Positions 6,044-19,107 of a stretch of 49,215 nt of DNA are shown piece by piece. Position numbers and translations under genes: made by a program. Positions within the stretch are counted from its first letter, which is position 1, and each line of letters starts with the position of its first letter. The notes under the pieces are model-generated. The model saw nothing but the letters and a program-made list of their open reading frames with translations. It did no database searches and was not told where the DNA came from. Source of the stretch: Clostridia bacterium (lineage in GTDB: Bacteria > Bacillota > Clostridia > Oscillospirales > Acutalibacteraceae); the NCBI GenBank assembly GCA_017436285.1, contig JAFSDL010000017.1:1-49215 (forward strand), read 5' to 3'.

Positions 6044-7417
6044 ATGGGTAGACTTTTTGGTACTGATGGAGCAAGAGGCGTTGCTAATACAGAATTAACC
6101 TGTGAGCTTGCAATGGAAATAGGCAGAGCTGCCGCTATGGTGCTCACAAAGCATTCAAACAAGAGAAACAAGGTGCTTATCGGTATGGATACAAGAGCAT
6201 CCTCACAAATGCTTGAATCTGCAATTTCTGCAGGACTTTGCTCTGTTGGTGCAGATGTTATGCTTTTAGGCGAAATTCCTACCCCGGCAGTTGCATATCT
6301 TGTGAAAAAATATGAGTACGATGCTGCAGTAATGATTTCTGCATCACATAATCCTTGTGAATATAACGGTATTAAAATCTTTCAGGGCTCGGGCTTTAAG
6401 CTTCCCGATGCTCTTGAAGAGGAGATTGAGAGCATAATTCTTGATAAAGCTCAGGTACCTCCTGTTAAGGTTGGTGGTGAGGTTGGCAGAATAACCCGCT
6501 CGAAAACAGCCCGCACAGATTATATCAACTATCTTATTGATGTTGCAGAAACCGATTTGAATTCTAATAATTATAAGGATTTTGAAGGCTTGAGAATTGC
6601 AGTGGACTGTTCAAATGGTTCTTCCTCTGTTACCGCGCCACAGATTTTTATGAATCTTTGTGATGATTGCTTTTTCATAGCTTCTCATCCCAATGGTACA
6701 AATATCAACGAAAAATGCGGCTCAACCCATCTTGAAATTCTGCAGGATTTTGTTGTGAGAAACAAATGCGATGTTGGTCTTGCTTTTGATGGCGATGCGG
6801 ACAGATTCCTTGCAGTTGATGAAAATGGTAATGTTGTTGACGGTGATAAATTAATTGCTATTTTTGCGAAGTATATGCAAGAAAAAGGCACCTTGAAGAA
6901 TAATACCGCAGTTGTTACTGTTATGAGTAATATGGGCTTTTTCAAGTTCTGTGAAGATAACGGCATTAATTGTGAAAAAACCAAGGTCGGCGACAGATAT
7001 GTTCTTGAAAATATGCTTGAGAATGATTATGTAATCGGTGGTGAACAGTCAGGTCATATTATTTTCAAGGATTTTGCCACAACAGGTGATGGTCAGCTTT
7101 CTGCCCTGAAGCTTCTTTGTATTATGAAGGCAACGGGTAAAAAGCTTTCTGAATTAGCATCAGTTATGCAGGTGTTTCCTCAGACCCTTGTTAATGTTCG
7201 TGTATCTGATTTCGGTAAAGCAAGATTCCCGAGAGATGAAGAAATTAAGAATGCAATAGCTACCGCAGAAAAAGAGCTTGGTAACGATGGTAGAGTTCTT
7301 GTCCGCGTTTCAGGTACAGAACCCCTTGTACGAGTTATGCTCGAGGGTAAGGATGAAGAAAAGATAAACACACTTGCGCAGGAAATTGCACAGGTTGTTA
7401 AGGAGAGATTACTTTAA
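6044..7417 (+). CDS. glmM: Phosphoglucosamine mutase GlmM
   Basis: GlmM converts glucosamine-6-phosphate to glucosamine-1-phosphate on the way to UDP-GlcNAc for peptidoglycan. It has 457 residues. It starts MGRLFGTDGARGVAN. The phosphoserine loop is ISASHNP (catalytic Ser near 101), the metal loop is FDGDADR, the sugar-binding loop is GGEQSGH, and the phosphate-binding loop is RVSGTEPLVRVM. The ATG at 6044 has AGGAG 8 nt upstream; a GTG at 6035 lies inside that site and is unlikely. The stop overlaps the next start as TAATG. Confidence 0.96.
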   Translation: MGRLFGTDGARGVANTELTCELAMEIGRAAAMVLTKHSNKRNKVLIGMDTRASSQMLESAISAGLCSVGADVMLLGEIPTPAVAYLVKKYEYDAAVMISASHNPCEYNGIKIFQGSGFKLPDALEEEIESIILDKAQVPPVKVGGEVGRITRSKTARTDYINYLIDVAETDLNSNNYKDFEGLRIAVDCSNGSSSVTAPQIFMNLCDDCFFIASHPNGTNINEKCGSTHLEILQDFVVRNKCDVGLAFDGDADRFLAVDENGNVVDGDKLIAIFAKYMQEKGTLKNNTAVVTVMSNMGFFKFCEDNGINCEKTKVGDRYVLENMLENDYVIGGEQSGHIIFKDFATTGDGQLSALKLLCIMKATGKKLSELASVMQVFPQTLVNVRVSDFGKARFPRDEEIKNAIATAEKELGNDGRVLVRVSGTEPLVRVMLEGKDEEKINTLAQEIAQVVKERLL

Positions 7418-8283
7418 TGCGAGTTTCTGACTTTTGGAAGGATTACGAGCTTATAGATTGTTCCGATGGTGAGCGCCTTGAGAGATGGGGAGATATTTTT
7501 CTCATAAGACCTGACCCTCAGGCACTCTGGAACACAAACAGAACAAATCCTATGTGGAAAAAGGCTCACGCAAGATACCACCGTTCAAATCAGGGTGGTG
7601 GATCATGGGAGTTTTACAGACAAATTCCTGAGGTGTGGCAGATTGGCTACAGAGATTTAAAATTCAATCTTAAGCCAATGGGCTTCAAGCATACGGGTGT
7701 TTTTCCCGAGCAGGCTTGTAACTGGGATTTGGTTGCAGATATTATTGAAAAAAGCGGAAGAACAGATGTTAAGGTTCTTAACCTTTTTGCATATACAGGT
7801 GCTGCAACGGTTTCTGCTCTTTTAAAGGGGGCTTCCGTTGTTCACGTTGATGCATCAAAGGGTATGGTGCAATGGGCAAAGGAAAATGCAGCATCATCAG
7901 GTGTTGCAGACAGAAGTGTCCGTTGGATTGTTGATGATTGTATGAAATTTGTTGCCCGTGAAATCAGAAGGGGCAATAAATACGACATTATAATTATGGA
8001 CCCGCCATCCTATGGCAGAGGGCCCGGTGGCGAGGTCTGGAAGCTCGAAAATGAAATTTACGGCTTTGTTAATCAATGCTGTGAGCTTTTAACGGAAAAT
8101 TCTCTTGCTGTTCTTATTAACTCCTATACTGCAGGTGTTTCTCCCGCAGTTATGAGCTACATATTAAATTCAACAGTAGCAAAGCGCTTCGGAGGATTTG
8201 CTACCGCAGATGAAATCGGTCTTAAGGTTACTGATAGCGGTCTTGTTCTTCCTTGCGGTTCTACTGCAGTGTGGAAAAAATGA
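7417..8283 (+). CDS. Class I SAM-dependent methyltransferase (RlmI/RlmK-like, COG1092 type)
   Basis: A 288-residue Rossmann-fold methyltransferase. Motif I is NLFAYTGAAT (122-131), followed by an acidic VVHVDASKGM strand. The catalytic-type motif is MDPPSYGRG (from about 194), common in nucleic-acid methyltransferases. It resembles the C-terminal half of the 23S rRNA m5C methyltransferase RlmI but lacks the N-terminal PUA domain. The substrate, probably rRNA or another RNA, is inferred. It overlaps glmM by one base and the next gene by ATGA, so it sits in a translationally coupled run. Confidence 0.85.
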   Translation: MRVSDFWKDYELIDCSDGERLERWGDIFLIRPDPQALWNTNRTNPMWKKAHARYHRSNQGGGSWEFYRQIPEVWQIGYRDLKFNLKPMGFKHTGVFPEQACNWDLVADIIEKSGRTDVKVLNLFAYTGAATVSALLKGASVVHVDASKGMVQWAKENAASSGVADRSVRWIVDDCMKFVAREIRRGNKYDIIIMDPPSYGRGPGGEVWKLENEIYGFVNQCCELLTENSLAVLINSYTAGVSPAVMSYILNSTVAKRFGGFATADEIGLKVTDSGLVLPCGSTAVWKK

Positions 8284-9128
8284 GTATGAATAAAATTATT
8301 GAATTCAAAAATGTTGATTTTCGTTATGCCGATGAAGAAAGCGATGCATTAAATGGCTTGAATCTTGAGTTTTATGAGGGGCAGTTTACTTGTGTGCTCG
8401 GTCATAATGGCTCAGGCAAATCAACTATGGCAAAGCTTATAAACGCTTTGGAATATCCCACAAGCGGAAGTGTTATAACCTATGGCTATGATACATCCGA
8501 TGAAAAGAATGAAATACCTATCAGGCGAAAGGTAGGAATGGTTTTCCAGAACCCTGATAATCAGATTGTTGCAACCATTGTTGAGGATGATGTTGCCTTC
8601 GGTCCCGAAAATTTAGGTGTTCCCCGCGAAGAAATCAGAAGGCGTGTTGATGAAGCCTTAAGGCTTGTTGATATGTATGATTACAGAAAGCATGAGCCTC
8701 ACCGTCTTTCAGGCGGTCAGAAGCAAAGAGTAGCAATTGCAGGTGTAATTGCAATGCAAACAAATTGTATTGTTCTTGATGAGCCTACTGCTATGCTTGA
8801 CCCTAAGGGCAGGCGAGAGGTAATGAATGCTCTTTTAAAACTGAAAAATGATTTAGGTATTTCTGTTATTCTTGTTACTCATTTTATGGATGAAGCAGTT
8901 AAAGCCGACAGGGTAGTGGTAATGAATGACGGTAAGGCTTGCCTTGATGGCTCACCTGCAGAGGTTTTTTCTCATTCAGCGCTTTTGAAAAATATCGGAC
9001 TTGCCGTTCCAAAACCAATGGAGCTTGCAGTTTCCTTAAAAGAAAATGGTGTTGATTTAAAAGAAACACCACTTACTACAGAAGAATTTATAAAATTATT
9101 TAAAAATTATATTGATAATAGAGGTTGA
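8280..9128 (+). CDS. ecfA1: ECF transporter ATPase EcfA1
   Basis: One of two ATPases of the energy-coupling factor module that powers uptake of vitamins and metals through exchangeable S subunits. It has 282 residues. Walker A is GHNGSGKS (41-48), the Q-loop is MVFQNPDNQIV, the signature is LSGGQKQR (from 143) and Walker B is CIVLDEPTAMLD. The start ATGA overlaps the previous stop. The QNPDNQ Q-loop is typical of EcfA1. The order ecfA1-ecfA2-ecfT-truA is the conserved Firmicutes order. No S subunit is encoded nearby, so this is the shared (group II) module. Confidence 0.94.
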   Translation: MSMNKIIEFKNVDFRYADEESDALNGLNLEFYEGQFTCVLGHNGSGKSTMAKLINALEYPTSGSVITYGYDTSDEKNEIPIRRKVGMVFQNPDNQIVATIVEDDVAFGPENLGVPREEIRRRVDEALRLVDMYDYRKHEPHRLSGGQKQRVAIAGVIAMQTNCIVLDEPTAMLDPKGRREVMNALLKLKNDLGISVILVTHFMDEAVKADRVVVMNDGKACLDGSPAEVFSHSALLKNIGLAVPKPMELAVSLKENGVDLKETPLTTEEFIKLFKNYIDNRG

Positions 9129-14152: not shown

Positions 14153-16462
14153 ATGAACAATAAAATGATATGCAGTAAATGCAAAAAACGTCCTGCGGTG
14201 ATTTTTGTTTCCCGCGTTGATGGTGATAAAACCACTCAGGAGGGGTATTGCATAAAATGTGCCTCAGAGCTTAATATCGGTCCTATAAAACAGATGATGC
14301 AGAGTATGGGGATTACAGAGGATGATATTGATGCTGTAAGCGAGCAGTTCGGTGATATGATGGAAAATCTTGACGATTTCCAGCTTGGTGGCGCAGGAAC
14401 AATGCCTTTTATGCAAAATTTCCTCAATAATAATCCGATGGGTAATAATTCATCTGCTGAAAATGAAGAGATAGCGGATGAAGAAGAGGATGAAAAAGAA
14501 GATAAAAAGGCTAAGAAGAAAAAGAAAAAACATAAAACAAAAAGAAAATTCCTGAATTCTTATTGTACCGACCTTACCGCAAGAGCAAGGGATGGTAAAA
14601 TTGACAGAATTATCGGTAGAGAAACCGAGATTTACAGAGTAACACAGATTCTTTGCAGAAGAACAAAAAACAACCCTTGCCTTATTGGTGAGCCCGGTGT
14701 CGGTAAAACTGCAATTGCAGAGGGTCTCGCTCTTAAAATTGCCGCAGGGGATGTTCCTGCAAGAATTGCAGATAAGGAAATCCATCTTCTTGATTTAACT
14801 TCGCTTGTGGCAGGCACTCAGTTCAGAGGTCAGTTTGAAAGCAGAATCAAGGGTCTTGTTGACGAGGTTAAGGAAGAGGGAAATATAATCCTCTTTATTG
14901 ACGAGGTTCATAACCTTGTTGGTACAGGTGATGCAGAGGGCTCAATGAATGCCGCTAACATTCTTAAGCCTGCTCTTTCAAGAGGTCAGATTCAGGTTAT
15001 TGGTGCAACAACCTTTAACGAATACAGAAAGCATATTGAAAAGGATGCTGCCCTTGAAAGACGCTTCCAGCCTGTTAAGGTTGAAGAGCCTTCAGTTGAA
15101 GAGTGCTTTAAAATGCTTGTTGGTATCAAAGAATACTATGAGGATTTCCATAAGGTTAAAATTTCCGATGCCCTTGTTTACAGAGCAGTTCATCTTTCAG
15201 AAAGATATATTAATGATAGGTTTTTACCCGATAAAGCAATTGACCTTCTTGATGAGGCTTGCACCTGTGCAAACCTTCGTAATGTTGCAATAAGCGATTA
15301 TCAGAAGCTTATGAACAAGCTTCAGGATTTGAACGAGCGTGAGGAAGAGCTTCTTGACACAACGTCTGAAGAGGGTCCCGATTACGAAGCGATTTCAAAT
15401 CTCAAGGCAGAGAAAATTGCTATTGAAAAGGAAGCGGCTCAGGTTAAAATCAAAGCCGATGATAATGATGTTACAGAAGAGGATATCGCAAGGGTAATCA
15501 ACCTTTGGACAGGTATTCCTACATCAAAAATCATTGAAAATGATATGAGAAAGCTTTCAAATCTTGAAAGCAAGCTTAAGCAGAGAATTATCGGTCAGGA
15601 TGAAGCAATTGAGGTTCTTGCAGCCGCTATCAGAAGAAGCAGAGTGCAGATTTCTGCAGTAAGAAAGCCTGCCTCCTTTATTTTTGTTGGTCCCACAGGC
15701 GTTGGTAAAACAGAGCTTGTAAAGCAGCTTGCTAATGAGCTTTTTGAAACACCCGAAACCCTTATTCGTCTTGATATGAGTGAGTTTATGGAGAAACATA
15801 GTGTTTCTCGTCTTATTGGCTCACCACCCGGTTATGTTGGCTATGATGAAGCAGGTCAGCTTACAGAAAAGGTAAGAAGAAAGCCTTATTCAGTTGTTCT
15901 TTTTGATGAAATTGAAAAGGCTCATCCCGATGTTCTTAATATCCTTCTTCAGATTCTTGATGAAGGCAAAACCAATGATGCTCAGGGCAGAACAGTAAGC
16001 TTTGAAAATACGGTTATTATTATGACATCTAACGCAGGTAGCCATATTTCTGAAAATGCTCTCGGCTTCAATCGTGATAAGAATCAGGCATCTAAGGATA
16101 AAACAATGAGGGCTCTTAAGGAATTCTTAAGACCTGAGTTCTTAGGCAGAGTTGATGAAATTGTTACCTTCAACACTCTCGGCAAGGCTGAGCTTGTTAA
16201 GATTGCAGAGGTTCTTTTAGGCGAGCTTAAGGCACCTCTCAAGGATAAGGGCATTGAACTTGTTGTTGGTGATGGTGTATATGAAATTATTGCCGACCTT
16301 TCTGAAGATGGTGGCAGAGGTGCCCGTGATATCAGAAGAACAATAAGAAAAGAGGTTGAAGATAAAATCGCCAATATTCTTATTGATAACGCAGGTGCAC
16401 TTGTAAACGAAATCACAGTTAATGCAGTTAATGGTGTGATTTCAGTAGATTTTAAAGCATAA
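14153..16462 (+). CDS. ClpE-like AAA+ unfoldase with N-terminal zinc finger
   Basis: A 769-residue Hsp100 ATPase. The N-terminus is a treble-clef-like zinc site, C7-x2-C10 and C33-x2-C36, as in ClpE and McsA, instead of the double Clp-N repeat of ClpC. An acidic then Lys-rich linker (about 100-135) follows. AAA module 1 has Walker A GEPGVGKT and Walker B FIDEVHNL. A middle coiled segment comes next. AAA module 2 has GPTGVGKT and VLFDEIEKAHPD. Partnership with ClpP is likely but not shown here. No ctsR, mcsB or CtsR operator lies nearby. The closest family match is ClpE; ClpC is the alternative name often given. A hairpin follows the stop. Confidence 0.88.
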   Translation: MNNKMICSKCKKRPAVIFVSRVDGDKTTQEGYCIKCASELNIGPIKQMMQSMGITEDDIDAVSEQFGDMMENLDDFQLGGAGTMPFMQNFLNNNPMGNNSSAENEEIADEEEDEKEDKKAKKKKKKHKTKRKFLNSYCTDLTARARDGKIDRIIGRETEIYRVTQILCRRTKNNPCLIGEPGVGKTAIAEGLALKIAAGDVPARIADKEIHLLDLTSLVAGTQFRGQFESRIKGLVDEVKEEGNIILFIDEVHNLVGTGDAEGSMNAANILKPALSRGQIQVIGATTFNEYRKHIEKDAALERRFQPVKVEEPSVEECFKMLVGIKEYYEDFHKVKISDALVYRAVHLSERYINDRFLPDKAIDLLDEACTCANLRNVAISDYQKLMNKLQDLNEREEELLDTTSEEGPDYEAISNLKAEKIAIEKEAAQVKIKADDNDVTEEDIARVINLWTGIPTSKIIENDMRKLSNLESKLKQRIIGQDEAIEVLAAAIRRSRVQISAVRKPASFIFVGPTGVGKTELVKQLANELFETPETLIRLDMSEFMEKHSVSRLIGSPPGYVGYDEAGQLTEKVRRKPYSVVLFDEIEKAHPDVLNILLQILDEGKTNDAQGRTVSFENTVIIMTSNAGSHISENALGFNRDKNQASKDKTMRALKEFLRPEFLGRVDEIVTFNTLGKAELVKIAEVLLGELKAPLKDKGIELVVGDGVYEIIADLSEDGGRGARDIRRTIRKEVEDKIANILIDNAGALVNEITVNAVNGVISVDFKA

Positions 16463-16518: not shown

Positions 16519-19107
16519 ATGAATAAAAAAGTGGTAGTCGGTATCATTGCCCACGTTGACGCGGGTAAAACAACTCTTGCAGAAACACTTCTTTATAAAT
16601 CGGGCAAAATAAGGAAATTAGGTCGTGTTGATAATGGTGACACGGCTTTAGATACTCATACCCTTGAGCGTGAAAGAGGCATTACAATTTTTGCAGGTCA
16701 GTCAGTGTTCAATATAGGGGAATTAGAAATCAACCTTCTTGATACACCGGGTCACGTGGACTTTTCTGCGGAAACAGAACGAAGCCTTAAAATTCTTGAC
16801 TATGCAATTCTTGTTATAAGCGGAACTGACGGTGTTCAGGCTCACACAAGAACATTGTGGAAGCTTCTTTGCGCCTATAATATACCCACCTTTATTTTCG
16901 TTACAAAAATGGACTATGCAAGGCTTTCAAGGGAAGAGCTTATTGCAGATTTAAAGGAGCTTTGCTCTGATAATTGTATTGATTTTTCAGTTGATAATTC
17001 CGAAGGCTTTTTCGAGAATGTTTCAATGTGTGATGAAGAAGCGTTAGAAATCTATCTTGAAAACGGATTAATCGAAAAAGAGAAAATAAAGGAGCTTATC
17101 AAAGCCCGGAAATGCACCCCTTGTTATTTCGGCTCAGGCATAAAGGGTGATGGTGTTGATGAATTCATAAACGGGCTTGAAAAATACATTTCCGTTAAAA
17201 AATACCCCGAAGAATTTGGCGCAAAGGTCTATAAAATTACCCACGACAGTAAAGGCGAAAGAATTACTCATGTAAAGGTTACAGGTGGCTCATTAAAGGT
17301 TAAGGATACAATATCTGTAAACGAAAAAACAGAAAAGATAAATAATATTAGAGTTTATTCGGGAGATAAGTTTATAACCGTTGAAGAGGCTGTAAAGGGT
17401 GGTATTTATGCCCTTACAGGACTTAATTCAGTTAATACAGGCGATGGCTTAGGCTTTGAAAAATTCTTCGGAAAAGCCTTTTTAGAGCCCGTTATGAACT
17501 ATCGTATAGTTCTTCCCAAGGACTGCGACCCGAAAACCTTTTTCCCTAAACTCAAAGAGCTTGAAGCAGAAGACCCTCAACTACATATTACCTGGAACAC
17601 CTATTTGCAGGAAATCAATGTTTCCTTAATGGGTGATGTTCAAACCGAAATTCTCAAAAGCATCATTTCAACCCGATTCAATGTTGATGTGGAAATTGAT
17701 AGCGGTAAGGTGCTTTATAAGGAAACCATTGAAAATAAGGTTGAGGGAGTAGGTCACTATGAGCCCTTAAGGCATTATGCCGAGGTTCATTTGATTATTG
17801 AACCCTTACCGAGAGGTAGCGGAATTCAGCTTGCATCAAAATGCAACGAGGACTCTTTAAGCCGGAATTGGCAGAATCTAATTATGGGTCATTTAAGCGA
17901 AAAGGAGCATCTTGGCGTGCTTACAGGCTCGCCTGTAACAGATGTTAAAATCACTCTTGCGGCAGGCAGAGCCCATTTAAAGCATACCGAGGGTGGCGAT
18001 TTCAGGCAGTCAACCTACAGAGCGGTAAGGCAAGGTCTTATGCAGGCAAAATCCCTGCTTTTAGAGCCTTATTATAGCTTCCGCCTCGAAGTGCCCTCAG
18101 AGCAAATCGGCAGAGCAATCAATGATATCAGAATGAAAAACGGTACAATTGACTCTCCCGAGGATTCAAACGGAACAAGTATTTTAACAGGCAAAGCCCC
18201 TGTTACAACCTTAAATGGCTATGCATTAGAGGTAGCAGCATATACAAGCGGTAAGGGTCGTTTATTCCTTGAGGTCTGCGGTTACGATATCTGCCATAAT
18301 GCAGATGAAATAATAGAAAATTCAAAATATTCTCCCGAAAGTGATTTGGAGAATACGCCCGATTCCGTTTTCTGTGCTCACGGTGCAGGCTTCAATGTGA
18401 AATGGGATAAGGTTTTCGAATATATGCACATCGACTCTTGCTTAGAGCAGGAAAAAACACCTTATGAAGCCAATCTCAATAAAAGGAATTTCCATATTGA
18501 CGATAAAGAGCTTGAGGCTATAATGACCCGTGAATTTGGTGAAGATAAGCACCCGTTTTACAGATATAGCCACAATAAAACTCCCGCAAAGCCCGTCAAT
18601 ACAGAGTATAACACAGAAATACGCAAGAAATATGTTATTGTTGACGGCTATAACGTGATTTTTGCCTGGGACGAATTAAAGGAAATTGCAAACGAAAATC
18701 TTAGTATTGCCCGTGATAAGCTTTTAGATATTCTTTGCAATTATTCTGCTTTCACCAAATGCGAAACCATCGTTGTTTTTGATGCCTATAAGGTTGCAGG
18801 TAACAACGGTCAAAGATTCAATTACAACAACATTCATGTTGTTTATACTAAAGAGCGTGAGCTTGGTGATAACTATATTGAAAAGCTTATAAGCGATATT
18901 GGTAAAAATGATAATGTCCGTGTTGTAACATCCGATAATCTTATTCAGCTTTCTGCAGTGCGCTTTGGTGTTCTCAAGGTATCTGCGAAGGATTTCAAAA
19001 GAGAGATTGATGCAGTTGAAAAGAATATTGATGATTTGCTCTTTAAAATAAATAAACCCCGACCTCAGAGGGTTGGCGATTTAGTAGAGCTTTTGTTAGA
19101 AAATTAA
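16519..19107 (+). CDS. TetM-like ribosomal GTPase fused to a Rae1/YacP-type NYN nuclease domain
   Basis: An 862-residue fusion. Residues 1 to about 640 are an EF-G/TetM-type translational GTPase: G1 AHVDAGKTT (11-19), switch region ERERGIT, G3 DTPGHVDF (75-82), G4 TKMD (129-132), then domains II-V, ending with YSFRLEVPSEQIGRA and a GYALEVAAYTSGKG segment. TetM proteins end near 640. After a linker, about residues 702-862 form a NYN/YacP domain: VDGYNVIFAW (D709), VVFDAYKV (D755), TKERELGDNYIEKL (D784) and VVTSD (D806). These match the acidic residues and order I know for Bacillus Rae1, an endonuclease acting in the ribosomal A site. The domain IV tip reads KHTEGGDFR (488-496), not the SPVSTPADFR loop of TetM, so tetracycline resistance should not be assumed. 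First gene of a four-gene unit. Confidence 0.9.
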   Translation: MNKKVVVGIIAHVDAGKTTLAETLLYKSGKIRKLGRVDNGDTALDTHTLERERGITIFAGQSVFNIGELEINLLDTPGHVDFSAETERSLKILDYAILVISGTDGVQAHTRTLWKLLCAYNIPTFIFVTKMDYARLSREELIADLKELCSDNCIDFSVDNSEGFFENVSMCDEEALEIYLENGLIEKEKIKELIKARKCTPCYFGSGIKGDGVDEFINGLEKYISVKKYPEEFGAKVYKITHDSKGERITHVKVTGGSLKVKDTISVNEKTEKINNIRVYSGDKFITVEEAVKGGIYALTGLNSVNTGDGLGFEKFFGKAFLEPVMNYRIVLPKDCDPKTFFPKLKELEAEDPQLHITWNTYLQEINVSLMGDVQTEILKSIISTRFNVDVEIDSGKVLYKETIENKVEGVGHYEPLRHYAEVHLIIEPLPRGSGIQLASKCNEDSLSRNWQNLIMGHLSEKEHLGVLTGSPVTDVKITLAAGRAHLKHTEGGDFRQSTYRAVRQGLMQAKSLLLEPYYSFRLEVPSEQIGRAINDIRMKNGTIDSPEDSNGTSILTGKAPVTTLNGYALEVAAYTSGKGRLFLEVCGYDICHNADEIIENSKYSPESDLENTPDSVFCAHGAGFNVKWDKVFEYMHIDSCLEQEKTPYEANLNKRNFHIDDKELEAIMTREFGEDKHPFYRYSHNKTPAKPVNTEYNTEIRKKYVIVDGYNVIFAWDELKEIANENLSIARDKLLDILCNYSAFTKCETIVVFDAYKVAGNNGQRFNYNNIHVVYTKERELGDNYIEKLISDIGKNDNVRVVTSDNLIQLSAVRFGVLKVSAKDFKREIDAVEKNIDDLLFKINKPRPQRVGDLVELLLEN

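Follow-up and report, generated by a model that had tools for sequence, protein, structure and literature searches.

Rae1, the YacP protein of Bacillus subtilis, is described as an A-site endoribonuclease and is proposed to act on stalled ribosomes (PMC6613710, PMC10100781). The efp swarming defect of B. subtilis is suppressed when either rae1 or the rlmB homologue yacO is lost (PMC6613710), in line with Rae1 action at paused ribosomes. In Tet(M), a domain IV loop with Pro509 reaches the drug site (PMC8161019, PMC4750697). The two protein types meet in one sentence of Atkinson 2015 (PMC4342817), which describes Tet proteins that carry a YacP-like NYN domain in ten clostridial species, and that paper suggests antibiotic resistance through RNase action; no further account of the fusion was found in the open-licence literature searched. 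Here we analyse a 49,215-nucleotide stretch of DNA (contig JAFSDL010000017.1, assembly GCA_017436285.1; hereafter the window) from a Clostridia bacterium of the Acutalibacteraceae, in which one gene encodes a translational GTPase fused to a Rae1/YacP-type nuclease. We consider it probable that its product is a one-chain, ribosome-targeted mRNA endonuclease that took over the role of free Rae1 across much of the class Clostridia.

A preliminary description of this locus had claimed a translational GTPase and a Rae1-type nuclease fused in one protein, and Pfam indeed places the domains of both in one frame, with the following features:

16519..19107, + strand: whole gene, fused translational GTPase and Rae1/YacP NYN nuclease of 862 amino acids (aa), a single unbroken ATG-started frame
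16531..17190, + strand: GTP-binding domain, residues 5-224 (Pfam GTP_EFTU, 166 bits)
17218..17451, + strand: EF-G domain II, residues 234-311 (Pfam)
17485..17697, + strand: EF-G domain III, residues 323-393 (Pfam)
17704..18051, + strand: EF-G domain IV, residues 396-511 (Pfam)
17974..18006, + strand: domain IV tip loop HLKHTEGGDFR, residues 486-496 (row alignment)
18058..18300, + strand: EF-G domain V, residues 514-594 (Pfam)
18301..18438, + strand: C-terminal extension, residues 595-640, containing SVFCAHGAGFNVKWDKVFEYMH at 616-637 (alignment of 21 fusions)
18439..18633, + strand: linker, residues 641-705, mostly unconserved (identity outside the genus)
18499..18549, + strand: fusion-specific linker motif DDKELEAIMTREFGEDK, residues 661-677 (conservation, pattern search)
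18634..19056, + strand: NYN_YacP nuclease domain, residues 706-846 (Pfam, YacP structure match, alignment)
18643, 18781, 18868 and 18934, + strand: nuclease acids D709, D755, D784 and D806, respectively (alignment)

Judged by its sequence, the protein is an intact GTPase of its own subfamily, joined through a variable linker with one conserved motif to an intact Rae1-type nuclease. The G1 (AHVDAGKTT), G2 (RGIT) and G3 (DTPGH) motifs are all intact in the window and, with domains II-V, identify a translational GTPase of the EF-G/EF-2 fold; across 21 aligned fusions (the window and 20 other genomes) the GTPase motifs are invariant or almost so. G4 (16903-16914) reads TKMD in the window, its T being found also in four aligned congeners and N in the other 16 of the 21. 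The preliminary description had let the GTPase run to about residue 640: it is complete, with its G motifs present, but the EF-G-like domains end near residue 594 and are followed by an extension to about 640 and a linker to about 705.

The nuclease domain scores 151.9 bits with the Pfam NYN_YacP profile (cut-off 24.6). The proposed search of the C-terminus against the Rae1/YacP family returned B. subtilis YacP/Rae1 (PDB 5mq8/5mq9), with the C-terminal 176 residues matching chain residues 4-149 at an expectation value (E) of 5.6e-23 and the next-best structure match of the NYN part at E 0.61. DGYN, FDA, the D of 'gD' and TSD align between the window and B. subtilis domains, and the four acids that had been likened to those of Rae1 are invariant in 21 of 21 fusions. 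In four within-genus comparisons with the window, nonsynonymous divergence (pN) was 0.11-0.18 against a saturated synonymous divergence (pS) of 0.66-0.82 in both domains, and dN/dS ratios were set aside on account of this saturation. A fusion produced by sequencing, assembly or chance is ruled out by the same architecture in many genomes.

A survey of how often the two domains are fused, which had been proposed as a check, found the fused form to be common in the class. Among 393 Clostridia genomes drawn at a completeness filter of 90%, a GTPase-only profile (21 rows) matched 170 at E<=1e-120. Among the matches listed, the GTPase lay in an open reading frame (ORF) of at least 780 aa in 127 of 148 genomes, the window included (three of these, G225, G120 and G246, have one stop within the matched stretch), and in an ORF of under 720 aa in 21, of which three (G102, G228 and G291) are broken or cut fusions. 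The YacP domain was found in 250 of the 393; among the matches listed, 65 genomes have frames of free size (169-216 aa), 80 have frames of fused size (734-1190 aa) with the NYN domain in the same frame, and 5 have intermediate frames (295-501 aa). These YacP and GTPase counts from listed matches are lower bounds, and co-location with the NYN domain was seen in the 80 genomes and in extracted proteins, being otherwise deduced from ORF length and a YacP match. In a set of 60 relatives, 18 carry the YacP domain, one each, in frames of at least 686 aa.

Fused and intact free forms nearly exclude each other in the genomes examined. None of the 65 genomes listed with a free rae1 as best match carries a GTPase ORF of at least 780 aa. 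The preliminary description had asked whether fused genomes lack a separate yacP, and those examined showed no second intact one, with a single exception: more than one YacP match occurs in five class genomes, and a second intact copy only in G340, where a free rae1 of the canonical clade lies between rlmB and sigH in addition to the fusion. The extra matches in G426 are broken pieces. Weak partial matches (21 bits, below the cut-off, profile positions 3-49) were also seen at L150, L149 and L148 (G176, G230 and G264), in frames of about 165 aa that lie well away from sigH. The exclusion extends within families: one of five genomes of family f43 is fused and four are free, whereas family f42 has, among ten genomes, four whole fused forms, two apparently cut at contig ends, two free and two with neither, and in neither family does any genome carry both. 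One genus (g66) contains two fused forms and one free.

Free rae1 has a characteristic location, adjoining sigH in 19 of 20 loci and lying near rlmB in 17 of 20 and near a 176-aa gene in 17 of 20; the identities of rlmB and sigH were confirmed by NCBIfam, and the 176-aa gene, whose protein gave no NCBIfam match, we take to be mrnC. No sigH neighbourhood was found in any of 21 fused loci within 7 kb or to the contig end, some loci being cut by contig ends, and the window gene, at 862 aa and at another locus, departs from the free-standing, sigH-adjoining form of about 170 aa. The position of canonical rae1 beside rlmB, a 23S rRNA methyltransferase gene, could point to a different substrate, with the nuclease acting on rRNA or tRNA in ribosome maturation or defective-ribosome surveillance and the GTPase checking subunits; a maturation role proposed for the YacP-type NYN domain is also cited in Atkinson 2015 (PMC4342817). 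We regard this as very improbable, because Rae1, the homologue that has been studied, is described as cutting mRNA in the A site (PMC6613710, PMC10100781).

Replacement of free Rae1 by the fusion is further suggested by remnants in the gap between rlmB and sigH. We took 47 sigH loci from searches of 20 genomes (17 with matches) and 30 genomes (30 with matches); 46 of the 50 genomes had been picked solely as fusion carriers, and the remaining four (G340, G281, G265 and G000) were included on other grounds. In 24 loci, all from fusion genomes, rlmB lay beside sigH (within a 1.5-kb flank); rae1 stands between them in one (G340), and 23 lack an intact rae1 and have gaps of 123-792 bp. A profile of all NYN rows, run on 6098 six-frame fragments of at least 15 aa, placed NYN-like pieces at E<=1 in these 24 loci solely within the gap and on the strand of the genes, where the fragments number 240 of 3061; outside the 24 loci it recovered the intact gene of G281 and two pieces that scored weakly, at E 0.49 and 0.98.

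At E<0.05, this model detected pieces in five of the 23 gaps: G426 (1.4e-9 and 1.7e-6), G133 (3.9e-4), G081 (0.013), G154 (0.017) and G355 (0.033). A model of 18 canonical Rae1 proteins alone, built after the all-NYN result was seen, detected seven, adding G172 (5.5e-4) and G192 (2.2e-3) to G426 (4.2e-12 and 1.7e-6), G133 (2.6e-4), G081 (2.4e-3 and 0.014), G154 (0.033) and G355 (0.036). The canonical model outscored the fused-type one, or alone scored, in six of the seven gaps, with a tie in G154, and control searches of one reversed and five shuffled sets gave no match at E<0.05 with either model. One G426 relic also exceeds the cut-off of the Pfam YacP model, and sigH lies just beyond it. 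In our reading, these pieces are canonical rae1 genes in decay. Near mutual exclusion in the genomes examined and decay of rae1 at its old site are what sequence comparison shows, and the decay of the free-standing copy in some fusion genomes suggests that the fusion took over its job.

Several observations weigh against this view. No relic was found at E<0.05 in 16 of the 23 gaps, even with the canonical model, and an intact rae1 would be too long for 18 of the 23. Several relics are individually weak (E 0.03-0.04), that of G154 scores equally under both models, and the gap of G195 yields pieces (E 0.12 and 0.051) that score slightly better with the fused-type model. All gaps searched for relics came from fusion genomes. 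The YacP domain was not found in 143 of the 393 class genomes, and rae1 has therefore been lost without a fusion too, so that its loss alone is no proof of replacement; the case is built on exclusion, on the relics of fusion genomes and on the one genome (G340) with both. Additionally, no NYN match was found in 9 of 21 congeners, three of them 95-97% complete (G011, G018 and G019), which makes the fused gene dispensable rather than essential. Enrichment of free Rae1 in genomes with the unfused GTPase, as expected of a Rosetta-stone pair, was not seen (YacP in 13 of 18 listed genomes versus 250 of 393 overall). Finally, domain IV and the NYN domain are unable to occupy the A site together.

The nuclease domains themselves bear on the origin of the fusion. 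Compared with B. subtilis Rae1/YacP, the domain is the same and the four acids are kept, but there it is free and here it ends a GTPase encoded at another locus, and fused-type NYN domains group apart from canonical ones. In the NYN trees, canonical free Rae1 forms a clade with support 100/99 (18 rows, or 19 with the copy of G340), and fused-type domains fall on the other side together with two free NYNs, that of G281, which adjoins sigH, and that of G265, which does not. The G265 copy (L076, 8787-9308) occurs with an unfused GTPase elsewhere in the genome, and is a possible fission of the fusion. Monophyly of the fused rows was not rejected (approximately unbiased test, p-AU 0.227); a single origin is thus compatible with the data, not established. 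Most simply, the fusion would derive from a G281-like lineage of Rae1 and have since spread or been inherited widely. The fused gene at L135 (G102, 6130-8759), split into two overlapping frames of 584 and 345 aa, was excluded from both the NYN and the GTPase tree, and L134, whose contig ends within the NYN domain, from the NYN tree.

The GTPase is kin to the Tet proteins at the level of the superfamily, and to this extent the preliminary term 'TetM-like' holds, but it belongs to a separate subfamily. The highest-scoring NCBIfam profile, tet_protect, gives 446 bits, well below its cut-off of 775, and the EF-G equivalog TIGR00484 gives 269.6 bits against a cut-off of 659. The GTPase tree, built from 48 rows (26 fused, 17 unfused, 4 Tet and 1 EF-G), places Tet(M/O/W/S) in a clade of their own (support 100) and the 43 fused and unfused rows in another (96), the two being separated by long branches; the deep branching is tentative, given the quick method and the very long branch of EF-G. 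Within the second clade, the fused rows make up one group (94) that spans many families and includes one unfused protein, from Ligilactobacillus salivarius. That protein (L153, plasmid NZ_CP114521, 3974-5917) is annotated as 'TetM/TetW/TetO/TetS family', and is perhaps a transferred gene that lost its nuclease, to judge from its placement.

The tip of domain IV also sets the subfamily apart. It follows the pattern H-x-K-H-T-x-G-G-D-F-R, with K488, H489, T490, D494 and F495 conserved in all 26 fused rows; all 17 unfused rows conserve H489, T490, G492, G493, D494 and R496. The equivalent loop of Tet(M), Tet(O) and Tet(W) is of equal length and reads YSPVSTPADFR; S508-P509-V510 of Tet domain IV loop III is absent from the window protein, which has LKH there. 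An earlier idea, of a tip loop shortened as in inactive Tet mutants, was dropped, the loop being as long as that of Tet(M). As this tip differs from the Tet tip that reaches the drug site, the GTPase retains the Tet/EF-G build but has a probe of its own.

These comparisons bear on the suggestion of Atkinson 2015 (PMC4342817) that such a fusion is an antibiotic-resistance protein with an RNase added. The published suggestion is in keeping with tet_protect as the best NCBIfam profile and with TetM/TetO as the solved structures closest to the GTPase, and the two groups share domain order and C-terminal extension as well as tip-loop length. Yet the fusion has 31-33% identity to plasmid-borne Tet(M/O/W/S), stays under the profile cut-off, stands in a separate clade, has an invariant tip (KHTxGGDFR) where Tet proteins have SPV, with Pro509 in the drug site (PMC8161019), and is found where free rae1 was lost. 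On these grounds we rejected a true Tet resistance protein, and a resistance role of the suggested kind seems to us quite improbable. The fusions of that paper have the same architecture, in clostridial species, and, judged by its brief description, very probably belong to the same family; what is treated there as Tet emerges here as a subfamily distinct from Tet, widespread and linked to loss of free Rae1.

What joins the two halves is informative about whether they work together. Downstream of domain V, residues S616, F618, C619, G622, V627, W629, V632 and M636 of the C-terminal extension are invariant in 21 of 21 fusions, and a similar segment is present in unfused homologues. These homologues (the L. 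salivarius protein, at 50% identity, and 16 further class-genome rows) share the tip and the extension, but end near residue 640, without linker motif or nuclease. Beyond this point, linker residues 661-703 have 9-28% identity outside the genus. By inspection, the linkers of 25 of 25 fusions contain a short motif (DDKELEAIMTREFGEDK in the window, elsewhere for example DKELMRIFEKTYGSIK or LEEIDQIFNKTFYANRGKK), in which E664 is invariant in 21 of 21 aligned fusions. A pattern composed after viewing the sequences found it ahead of an NYN domain at 57 loci, several of which are overlapping pieces of one genome, and at 2 unrelated places among 12086 open stretches; the same search gave no match in unfused GTPases or free Rae1. 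The motif may represent a docking helix.

One could suppose that the parts remain independent, a relocated Rae1 finding ribosomes by itself and the GTPase performing a separate job, with fusion coupling expression or dosage only. The unfused GTPase and free Rae1 are each found without the other, and the linker is long and mostly unconserved, as this would lead one to expect. However, the fused rows form one group across many families, separation is rare among the rows examined (G265 perhaps, and the unfused L. salivarius protein within the fused group), and the linker bears a conserved motif specific to fusions; we therefore judge independence of the parts unlikely. A conserved internal start that would yield a separate NYN protein was also considered and set aside: a start with an upstream purine stretch occurs at about the same place in four of five genus rows, and such starts are scattered in 5 of the other 16 rows outside the genus.

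For a ribosome-targeted nuclease that replaced Rae1, the following mechanism can be envisaged. By analogy with its family, the GTPase in its GTP form would bind ribosomes whose A site is open. Once GTP is hydrolysed or domain IV loosens, the tethered nuclease would be free to enter the vacated A site, or to reach the mRNA at the entry side, and would cut mRNA on the ribosome as is proposed for Rae1. Because an EF-G/Tet-type domain IV and the NYN domain both want the A site, this would need a hand-over between them along the linker. The GTPase would thereby give Rae1 chemistry an address and a switch, and we infer that it delivers the nuclease to stalled ribosomes. In its most specific form, which we put forward tentatively as possible rather than probable, the protein would be a bacterial one-protein no-go-decay machine, in which a dedicated GTPase with its own A-site probe (KHTxGGDFR) inspects paused ribosomes and, on hydrolysing GTP, yields the A site to the tethered Rae1 nuclease through the linker docking motif; it would have displaced free Rae1 across much of the Clostridia, with the old gene caught in decay. 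Eukaryotic Hbs1/Pelota with the A-site nucleases Cue2/NONU-1 resemble this in logic only, as a ribosome-scanning GTPase and an mRNA endonuclease: they are separate proteins and, as far as is known, the nuclease fold is unrelated and the GTPase belongs to a different branch of translational GTPases.

The surroundings of the fused gene are conserved within the genus only, where in five of five loci the same ClpC/ClpB-type gene lies 47-56 bp upstream and may share an operon with it. In the window this neighbour is:

14153..16462, + strand: ClpC/ClpB-type AAA+ protein, directly upstream of the fusion with 56 bp between

Across families, no conserved neighbourhood was found among 21 loci, and a defence system was rejected as an explanation, a PADLOC search having given nothing at E<=0.01. 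The fused gene also occurs in two records from human faeces named 'Bacteriophage sp.', MT835563 (L159, 5397-8024; marked UNVERIFIED) and MT835514 (hit H52), both of which may be bacterial scaffolds; IMG/VR gave no relatives of the fusion in a search sensitive to close relatives only. Among the matches listed, named genomes, most of whose 80 listed loci are ordinary EF-G kin, gave full-length matches in Lachnospiraceae, Oscillospiraceae and other Clostridia and matches ending at about residues 637-655 in Bifidobacterium, Collinsella, Neobacillus and Intestinibacter.

That the fusion exists in databases under generic names, as the preliminary description supposed, is borne out by the Monoglobus pectinilyticus protein, annotated 'translation factor GTPase family protein'; to that description must be added that the fusion has been published already, by Atkinson 2015 (PMC4342817). 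New here are the near-exclusion of fused and intact free Rae1, the rae1 relics and the fusion-specific linker motif, all drawn from comparison of genomes. A widespread and hardly studied GTPase subfamily is thus labelled as tetracycline resistance (an unfused member) or as a translation factor GTPase (a fused member), and such labels matter to resistance-gene surveys. A natural fusion with a presumably ribosome-binding GTPase offers a direct handle on how Rae1 picks its ribosomes. In Clostridia that carry the fusion, a housekeeping mRNA nuclease seems to be giving way to a targeted version, as the decay of rae1 suggests.

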